Below, piece by piece: positions 38,381-40,027 of a DNA stretch of 64,000 nucleotides. The DNA comes from Cytophaga aurantiaca DSM 3654 (lineage in GTDB: Bacteria; Bacteroidota; Bacteroidia; Cytophagales; Cytophagaceae): contig NZ_KB903665.1 of the NCBI RefSeq assembly GCF_000379725.1, positions 14,328 through 78,327 of the forward strand, written 5' to 3'. The translations under genes were made by a program, and so were the position numbers. Within the stretch, counting starts at the first letter, position 1; the number at the start of each line of letters is the position of its first letter. The notes beneath the pieces are model-generated. The model worked only from the letters and a program-made list of their open reading frames with translations. It was not told the DNA's origin and did no database searches.

Positions 38381-38407
38381 CATTCAGTTAGTGCTAAACA
38401 GCGCAAC

Positions 38408-38508
38408 ATTTATACAGAATAGGGAAGAGAGCAGGCTCAATGATCCTATAGCAACCGACTTAAAAGAACGGTGCTAAACCTGCCCAAAAATAAAAGGGAA
38501 CTATAAAT
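38408..38508 (+). ncRNA. SAM riboswitch, S-box (SAM-I) type of Bacteroidota
   Basis: P1 is formed by ATTTATA (38408-38414) and TATAAAT (38502-38508). P2 is ATAGG/CCTAT. Inside it GAG-CAGG-CTC forms a small hairpin followed by the conserved CAATGAT and then GCAACC. The conserved GGTGCTAA follows, and CCTGCC can pair with the CAGG loop as the family pseudoknot. In flavobacterial S-box RNAs as I recall them, the same positions hold AATG and CATT, so the pairing co-varies. The RNA binds S-adenosylmethionine and switches off sulfur-amino-acid genes. No terminator stem was found, so control may be translational. Confidence 0.85.
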
Positions 38509-38517
38509 TTAACACGT

Positions 38518-38574
38518 ATGAAAAGACCACTTTTACCTTCACTCAAGTTTATTTCAAGCAACATCAGTTGTTGA
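38518..38574 (+). CDS. Candidate 18-residue leader peptide ending in cysteine
   Basis: Nine nucleotides after the riboswitch P1, ATG opens an 18-codon ORF giving MKRPLLPSLKFISSNISC and TGA. It lies between the SAM riboswitch and the PLP-fold gene. A Ser/Cys-rich end in the leader of a sulfur-metabolism gene is suggestive of translation-based sensing, but a chance ORF is not excluded. Confidence 0.4.
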   Translation: MKRPLLPSLKFISSNISC

Positions 38575-38635
38575 AATAACACATCGATCTATTTAGGTCA
38601 TCTCAAAAAAAATAATTATCTAAACGCATTCAATC

Positions 38636-39730
38636 ATGACAGCTATAACAATATCTAACCGCACAAATCAAACCTTTTCTGATATCAATAAAATTGCTCA
38701 TACAATTTCAACTACAGAATATTTACTTGAAGTAGAAAAGCAAGTTGCAATTATTGAAGGAGGCGTAAATGCAGTAGCAAAAAAATCATTTCGTTCTGCA
38801 CGTTTTTCATTGATTAAAAATATTCTTTCTGCCGGAGGGAATGTATTAAGTTTTCAATCAAAACAAGCGTGGGAAAACGACGAGATTATTTATAAAAGAA
38901 AAAACATTAAGATCATTTACACTGAAAACTATTCACAGGATGAATGGGAAAATGTTTTACAAGATAAAAACATTTCTTTAGTGTATGTACCTACGATAAA
39001 TCAGGAAAATTTATCGATTCAAGATTATGGATATATCATCCAGAAAGCACACCAGATCAATGTTCCGGTTGTATTCGATAATACACATGGAGGTTTGGGA
39101 TATATTTATGCTCCGTTAAAAGACGGTGCTGATTTTGTCTTAACAGATCTTTCTTCTTCTGAAATATTTCAAAAACACTTGATCCACTCATTTATTGTTG
39201 AAGGATCGAATGGTATTTTGCATTCAAATACAGATAAAATATTGGGAAGAACAGTATTGGATAATCAAAAATATAATCGTGTATTAAACACAAAGTCTAC
39301 CTATTTTCCTGCAGAACGTGAAGATCACATAGAAAAGACGATTAAGAAAGAAGCTATTAAAAAAGGTGACTATTCTCGCACAGCAAATTATGTTTCCCGT
39401 TGGTTAAATAATCAGGAAGAAATTATGGAAATCACGTACGCTGGTTTGAAATCTTCTGAAAGCCATATACACGCTGAGTTGTACTTCAAAGGTGGGTATG
39501 GGAATATTTTCAAATTCAGCCTTTGGGATAATGAGTACAGCTACTCATTATTAAGGGGATTTTTTAGATCTGGAAAATTCAAGGGTATTAACATTGAGGT
39601 AAATACTAACACCAAAGAGTTCTTTGTTGAAATAGAAACAGAAAACTATATGAACGTGTTGCAATACTTTCAAAAGGTATTTACAATTCTAAAACAAAAT
39701 GTAGAATTCAGACAAAATCTAATCAAATAA
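38636..39730 (+). CDS. Cys/Met-metabolism PLP-fold protein lacking the catalytic lysine (pseudoenzyme)
   Basis: A 364-residue homologue of O-acetylhomoserine sulfhydrylase/cystathionine-synthase-type enzymes (usually 390-430). Aligning by eye: 'VAIIEGGVNAVAKKSFRSAR' replaces the ALEGGxxxxxxxSGxAA phosphate-binding region (Ser51 kept, Gly lost to Phe). The aspartate of 'VVFDNTHGGLGY' (Asp148) is present. The expected SATK of the PLP-binding motif is LSSS (172-175), so the lysine that would bind PLP is Ser174. The tail retains 'EITYAGLKSSESHIHAELYF'. It cannot form the internal aldimine, yet the frame is intact and sits behind a SAM riboswitch. A regulatory or binding role, or early decay, are the options. 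Confidence 0.85.
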   Translation: MTAITISNRTNQTFSDINKIAHTISTTEYLLEVEKQVAIIEGGVNAVAKKSFRSARFSLIKNILSAGGNVLSFQSKQAWENDEIIYKRKNIKIIYTENYSQDEWENVLQDKNISLVYVPTINQENLSIQDYGYIIQKAHQINVPVVFDNTHGGLGYIYAPLKDGADFVLTDLSSSEIFQKHLIHSFIVEGSNGILHSNTDKILGRTVLDNQKYNRVLNTKSTYFPAEREDHIEKTIKKEAIKKGDYSRTANYVSRWLNNQEEIMEITYAGLKSSESHIHAELYFKGGYGNIFKFSLWDNEYSYSLLRGFFRSGKFKGINIEVNTNTKEFFVEIETENYMNVLQYFQKVFTILKQNVEFRQNLIK

Positions 39731-39865
39731 AATAAATTGAAAAGAGTATTTGATTATGAACTGAAACAATTGCTGACTACAAATTCTTATAGAAGAAAAA
39801 ATTAATACTTGAATTTACCTCTATCTGTTTTTTAAAATAATTGGACATTAAAAAAAATGTGAACT

Positions 39866-40027
39866 ATGATATTTAATAACAACAAATATGAAAAGCGTCA
39901 AATTTTCAACTACCATGAAAAAGGTGAAGGTGAGGCAATCATATTCTTACACGGACTGTTTGGAGAGCTTAGTAACTGGAAAGCTACAATTGAGCACTTT
40001 TTAATAGAACGTTGTCAATTTGTCTGA
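39866..40027 (+). pseudogene. Truncated alpha/beta hydrolase (N-terminal remnant)
   Basis: A 53-codon frame starting MIFNNNKYEKRQIFNYHEKG, then 'GEAIIFLHGLFGELSNW', the oxyanion-hole HG motif that opens alpha/beta hydrolases of about 260 residues. It ends abruptly within the stem of a perfect terminator, so the rest of the gene has been deleted. It follows the PLP-fold gene by 135 nt on the same strand and may have been part of the same operon, such as an acyltransferase or hydrolase of methionine metabolism (inference). Confidence 0.75.

Follow-up and report, generated by a model that had tools for sequence, protein, structure and literature searches.

What does a SAM riboswitch govern when the gene behind it encodes a PLP-fold protein with no catalytic lysine? 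This question is raised by a locus in the window, the whole 64,000-nucleotide stretch of Cytophaga aurantiaca DSM 3654 analyzed here, for which an earlier note had offered two answers: a pseudoenzyme acting as a binding or regulatory partner of a real methionine enzyme, or a gene in decay. The window's own genome (G000; 4.42 Mb, 46 contigs) was compared with a complete genome of the same genus (G002; 4,433,218 bases), with a third Cytophaga (G003), and with four Sporocytophaga genomes (G015 to G018; related genus g10). Retention and decay both hold, at different levels: the gene is kept in the family and is failing in the window genome. The reading that we favor, and consider moderately probable, is that O-acetylhomoserine sulfhydrylase (MetY) gave rise to a pseudoenzyme that has been retained, made at low SAM and serving as a noncatalytic partner, probably of the hydrolase encoded in its operon, with the window copy newly impaired.

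The protein behind the riboswitch

At positions 38407 to 38509 on the forward strand, the window scan found a SAM-I (S-box) riboswitch aptamer matching the complete Rfam model RF00162 (1 to 108; 60.0 bits, the gathering score being 44.4; E 2e-11). The reading frame behind it (38636 to 39730, +; 364 amino acids) matched Pfam PF01053, Cys/Met metabolism (74 bits, cut-off 27, E 1e-20), confirming the earlier proposal that an S-box precedes a Cys/Met-metabolism homolog. Its top NCBIfam match was TIGR01326, the O-acetylhomoserine sulfhydrylases, at only 88 bits where the cut-off is 495; these enzymes were its nearest families, and the PDB sequence match was 8ovh (4e-21). The S-box leader is conserved in G002 and Sporocytophaga according to aligned leaders; Rfam places the S-box 5' of the gene in G002, G015, G017, and G018, and the diverged S-box of G016 is visible only by leader alignment. 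No obvious U-run terminator was found in the window's S-box leader. In other bacteria, abundant SAM generally reduces expression through the S-box, and by this analogy the S-box, perhaps together with a Cys-sensing leader ORF, would switch on the pseudoenzyme, and the pseudoenzyme and hydrolase pair should be produced when SAM is low.

Alignments with genuine MetY from the Cytophaga/Sporocytophaga family and from other families bore out the residue changes described earlier and added to them. The Schiff-base lysine of the SATK motif is Ser174 in the window protein and is replaced in all orthologs as well, none of which has a lysine at that active-site position; the phosphate-loop SG has become S-F, with Phe52 in place of the glycine, and Asp148 of the DNT motif, which contacts the pyridine nitrogen, is retained. 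Further losses, beyond those reported before, are two residues of the YTR motif, Tyr and Arg (neighboring-subunit contact), and the C-terminal LLRVS arginine (substrate Arg), and the MetY N-terminal segment is missing. K182 (FQKHL), one turn away, was considered as a substitute lysine and rejected, as it is shared with G002 (SKH) only and not with Sporocytophaga. The retained fold claimed earlier agrees with the AlphaFold2 model built from 42 homologs (pLDDT 84.9, pTM 0.83), five close orthologs alone having given a pLDDT of 53.6; the best PDB matches of the model in Foldseek were MetY-type sulfhydrylases (8ovh, E 4.7e-21; 2ctz, TMq 0.71).

Where MetY has the phosphate loop SGQAAQF, the basic motif K-[ST]-x-[RH]-[SA]-A-[RK]-[FY] stands: the window protein reads KSFRSARF, the Sporocytophaga orthologs read KSIRSARY, and a second lysine-less set of MetY homologs has KSLRSARF or KSLHAAKF. 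Both lysine-less groups have K50 and R56 (or Lys), which MetY does not. Because this motif is shared in the former PLP phosphate loop, it suggests a site that was remodeled rather than eroded, and with the site remodeled and the lysine gone, the protein should, judging from its residues, be incapable of MetY chemistry. The ligand of such a pocket is an element that we infer. A catalyst using another residue for lysine would also accord with the basic motif and with the strong constraint described below; however, the active-site Tyr, Arg, Gly, and Lys and the substrate Arg are all gone, and we regard a different chemistry as very improbable.

The second lysine-less set comprises 403-amino-acid proteins (L022, L023, L024, and L034 in Sporocytophaga; L082 in genome G142), with a dN/dS of about 0.06 to 0.1 in Sporocytophaga and no S-box near the one locus searched (L044). 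A further degenerate MetY group (L106, 4298-5491; L107, 7517-8773; L108, 611-1804; L019) adjoins metE and an Lrp-type regulator; it retains a lysine (NTK), but YTR is gone, as are the Gly of the phosphate loop and the C-terminal Arg. The degenerate groups were joined in the tree with support of 100/100, but long branches meet there, and we therefore do not claim a single origin from it.

Orthologs and candidate partners

Orthologs lacking the lysine, for which a search had been proposed, are present in G002 (68% identity; 390 amino acids) and in G015 to G018 (about 39%). These five genomes, one Cytophaga and four Sporocytophaga, retain the S-box, the lysine-less MetY homolog, and a full hydrolase, and the claim of a kept, riboswitch-controlled pseudoenzyme stands at the level of the family. 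G003 has no copy of the gene, and a search across the class yielded no further members at E <= 1e-28; in a scan of GTDB contigs, a single-protein query gave no match, and an alignment query returned two Sporocytophaga records.

The earlier note's span overlooked that the gene is the first of an operon with a hydrolase, here truncated. A 263- to 266-amino-acid alpha/beta hydrolase is encoded behind the pseudoenzyme gene in all five genomes, beginning in Sporocytophaga 2 to 3 nt 3' of it, and keeps GNSLGG, D, and H in the intact relatives. The full-length operon hydrolase is restricted to the five genomes whose ortholog is free of the window's damage; a separate paralog occurs in every genome of the Cytophaga/Sporocytophaga family except G012 (69% complete). 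Because the operon structure is conserved and the two genes co-occur, the hydrolase is the likeliest partner, and the operon points to it rather than to MetY. The pseudoenzyme would then most likely act on the adjacent hydrolase as scaffold or allosteric activator, a role that we infer.

The next candidate role is hetero-oligomer formation with true MetY: the pseudoenzyme would join MetY dimers or tetramers as a regulatory subunit and alter their activity at low SAM. It is derived from MetY, a true metY without an S-box is found in the same genomes, and PLP enzymes with a partner subunit that is lysine-free or dead are known (SPTLC1; TSB-like, PMC12727527). It lacks, however, the N-terminal arm and the YTR residues through which MetY subunits contact their neighbors, and what the operon conserves beside it is a hydrolase gene rather than metY; we consider such a subunit unlikely, while granting it some weight.

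A different partner is brought to mind by the C-terminal 130 residues of the pseudoenzyme, which match stand-alone proteins of 147 to 163 amino acids (hhalign 96.5%, E 1e-9) that gave no Pfam family and, in four genomes from a different bacterial family, lie directly 5' of arginine decarboxylase. These relatives were located at L121 (6901-7392), L122 (6341-6784), L123 (6622-7107), L126 (1501-1986), and L040 (9160-9627), and one of them adjoins metY in genome G001. Polyamine synthesis consumes SAM, and the pseudoenzyme operon of Sporocytophaga adjoins the same speA-argS block, a neighborhood that may hint at polyamine synthesis. It is conceivable that the C-terminal part, and not the MetY-like body, works with arginine decarboxylase, but speA is convergent in Sporocytophaga and not cotranscribed, the Cytophaga locus does not lie beside speA, so that the link is absent there, and the MetY-like body is conserved as well. 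We think this polyamine link distinctly unlikely and keep to the operon hydrolase as the probable partner.

Selection on the family and damage in the window

In Sporocytophaga, the dN/dS of the pseudoenzyme is about 0.05 to 0.06 (0.020/0.388, 0.052/0.829, and 0.052/0.901; NG86), and that of the operon hydrolase is similar or lower. The selection test that had been suggested therefore indicates purifying selection in Sporocytophaga and supports the window copy indirectly, through relative rates. Between the window and G002, the pseudoenzyme has a dN of 0.235 with dS saturated (NG86), so that constraint on the window branch is seen only indirectly; dN for the same pair was 0.19 to 0.31 in three less conserved flanking genes and 0.058 in true metY. 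With Sporocytophaga as the outgroup, 17 changes were unique to the window and 25 to G002, which is no acceleration, and the window lineage has therefore not long been released from constraint. As read from these rates, the catalytic loss is fixed in orthologs under purifying selection, which marks a retained pseudoenzyme, with the window copy included indirectly.

The window's copy is nevertheless not intact, as had been claimed. A premature TAA (39728 to 39730, +), at the codon after residue 364, where G002 has GAA (LIK*NKLKRVF in the window against ITKENKLKQVF in G002), closes the frame early and removes the C-terminal helix, leaving the protein shorter than the G002 ortholog by its last 26 residues. 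The C-terminal remainder is still readable behind this one in-frame TAA: 24 homologous codons stay open (39731 to 39805, +), reading NKLKRVFDYELKQLLTTNSYRRKN to the next stop, in alignment with ENKLKQVFDFELKQLLTANATTYKRRN of G002. The hydrolase behind it (39866 to 40027, +), full-length in G002 and G015 to G018, has 53 codons in the window, the first 46 being 87% identical to G002 and the following 7 unrelated; since it runs into unrelated sequence after 46 codons, the nucleophile is lost, and the acid and His regions are missing too. In blastn comparison, homology to G002 ends at 39999 and is picked up again from 40025, within the spacer before the following gene, placing the deletion junction at 40000 to 40024 (+); relative to the arrangement in G002, about 1.95 kb is absent, comprising the rest of the hydrolase and a fatty-acid hydroxylase gene. 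From the comparison of the two sequences, the window system is recently damaged, with a dead hydrolase and a C-terminally shortened pseudoenzyme.

With the frame prematurely closed, the earlier argument that an open frame suggests a gene still kept is a weak one. Neutral decay, in which a metY duplicate behind the S-box would be a simple pseudogene, draws on the early stop and truncated hydrolase of the window, on the absence of the gene from G003, and on a split frame in G018. Yet the orthologs carrying the same lost residues are under strong purifying selection, S-box and operon are conserved in two genera, and the rate on the window branch is not raised; the G018 frame was rejected as a sign of decay, since the genes around it are split as well and the split is probably an assembly error. 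The suggestion of decay is partly right for the window genome; for the family, dN/dS largely refutes it, and we hold a simple pseudogene to be quite unlikely. The pseudoenzyme is dispensable, as the truncated window copy without its hydrolase and the lack of the gene in G003 indicate, and this, like the saturated dS and the missing U-run terminator, counts against the reading that we favor.

S-box leaders across the Cytophagales and known parallels

An S-box stands directly 5' of a genuine metY in 27 of the 59 Cytophagales genomes sampled, all outside the Cytophaga/Sporocytophaga family (adjacency by coordinates; nine cases checked at the sequence level), and before a typical metY in none of the 11 genomes of that family that have one. 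The genuine metY of the window genome lies on another contig, without an S-box. What S-boxes govern in this family is the pseudoenzyme and also, across four genera, a 77- to 79-amino-acid protein ending in LN, the first 40 residues of which align with MetY residues 2 to 41 (hhalign E 1.1e-5); its score was 39 against MetY and 36 against the N-terminal 95 columns of MetY, compared with a maximum of 18.7 in 200 column shuffles. Its loci are L006 and L043 (G000), L110 (G002), L075 (G003), L070 (G008), L064 (G009), and L066 to L069 (Sporocytophaga), and the gene behind it encodes an HPP-family membrane protein in Sporocytophaga and a PhzF-like protein in Cytophaga (L066 to L069; L109, L110). Because it is present in G008 and G009, where no MetY match was found, it is not just a subunit of MetY. 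In this family, a riboswitch-controlled metY might have been split and repurposed into this N-terminal protein and the lysine-less body without that segment, each behind an S-box of its own, with metY itself moved off the S-box and the pieces forming a SAM- and cysteine-regulated noncatalytic complex that controls a hydrolase or a polyamine branch; we judge this rather improbable and continue to favor a pseudoenzyme acting on its operon hydrolase.

Cysteine enters through the leaders. A short ORF in the window (38518 to 38574, +), 8 nt 3' of the aptamer, could encode a leader peptide, MKRPLLPSLKFISSNISC, with one Cys; its equal-length counterpart in G002, MKKQLLTSLHFSLATACC, has two, and that of Sporocytophaga begins MNKRC. 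A hairpin with no U-run behind it is predicted over the end of the window uORF (38547 to 38582, +; ViennaRNA -14.4 kcal/mol for the segment), and G002 has a predicted hairpin in the corresponding position whose stem differs in sequence (-12.9 kcal/mol). Adjacent Cys codons were found in the first uORF of 7 of 15 S-box leaders in the Cytophaga/Sporocytophaga family (0.18 expected from dinucleotide shuffles) and of 10 of 18 in a separate sample of other Cytophagales families (0.55 expected), in total 17 of 33 against 0.7, counts that overstate the number of independent events through common descent remaining after the leaders were thinned. Several uORFs end in five to seven cysteines, and in a few leaders the Cys codons lie inside hairpin arms of the (AAC)n/(TGT)n type. 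Such uORFs (L147, L148, L150, L151, L154 to L156, L159, L162, L166, and others) often lie within about 10 nt behind the S-box, ahead of metY, metX, or a sulfite-reductase-like gene. Their natural reading suggests a SAM riboswitch in tandem with a cysteine attenuator, which, if confirmed, would sense the sulfur state through two inputs and be testable by reporters. Our literature search found no paper linking SAM riboswitches with polycysteine uORFs. Polycysteine attenuator ORFs are described in mycobacteria (Canestrari 2020, doi 10.1111/mmi.14498, cited in PMC13236596); as far as that citing account goes, they are likewise short ORFs with Cys codons 5' of a sulfur gene, and the Cytophagales ORFs differ in lying directly behind a SAM riboswitch, the window uORF in having a single Cys.

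The locus resembles other SAM-I (RF00162) loci in its full aptamer heading a sulfur-metabolism homolog and differs in that the S-box controls a pseudoenzyme, with a short ORF behind the aptamer and no clear U-run terminator. With MetY (TIGR01326; PDB 2ctz, 8ovh), the window protein has in common the fold, the overall sequence, and the DNT Asp, as well as S-box control, which metY has in other Cytophagales families; it differs in lacking the PLP lysine, SG loop, YTR, and C-terminal Arg, in its shorter N terminus, in its C-terminal loop and helix, and in its score far below the family cut-off. Annotations of the type "S-box plus Cys/Met enzyme" may accordingly be wrong on catalysis. Our literature search found no report of this MetY-like pseudoenzyme.

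SPTLC1/LCB1 is a noncatalytic paralog of a PLP enzyme kept by selection, as the window family is. The same likeness extends to the eudicot TSB-like pseudoenzyme, which has lost its own activity and activates another enzyme, a separate catalytic partner (PMC12727527). It differs in being of another PLP fold type and in having lost its activity mainly through two substitutions; in the window family the partner is putative and the gene is under a riboswitch. By analogy, it may serve as a precedent for the principle of a dead enzyme activating a partner. Pseudoenzymes of PLP enzymes are already known; we found no earlier case of one that occupies the riboswitch slot of its ancestor beside a conserved hydrolase. 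By taking over that slot from the catalytic ancestor, a pseudoenzyme would show how a gene of metabolism can become a regulator with its control unchanged.
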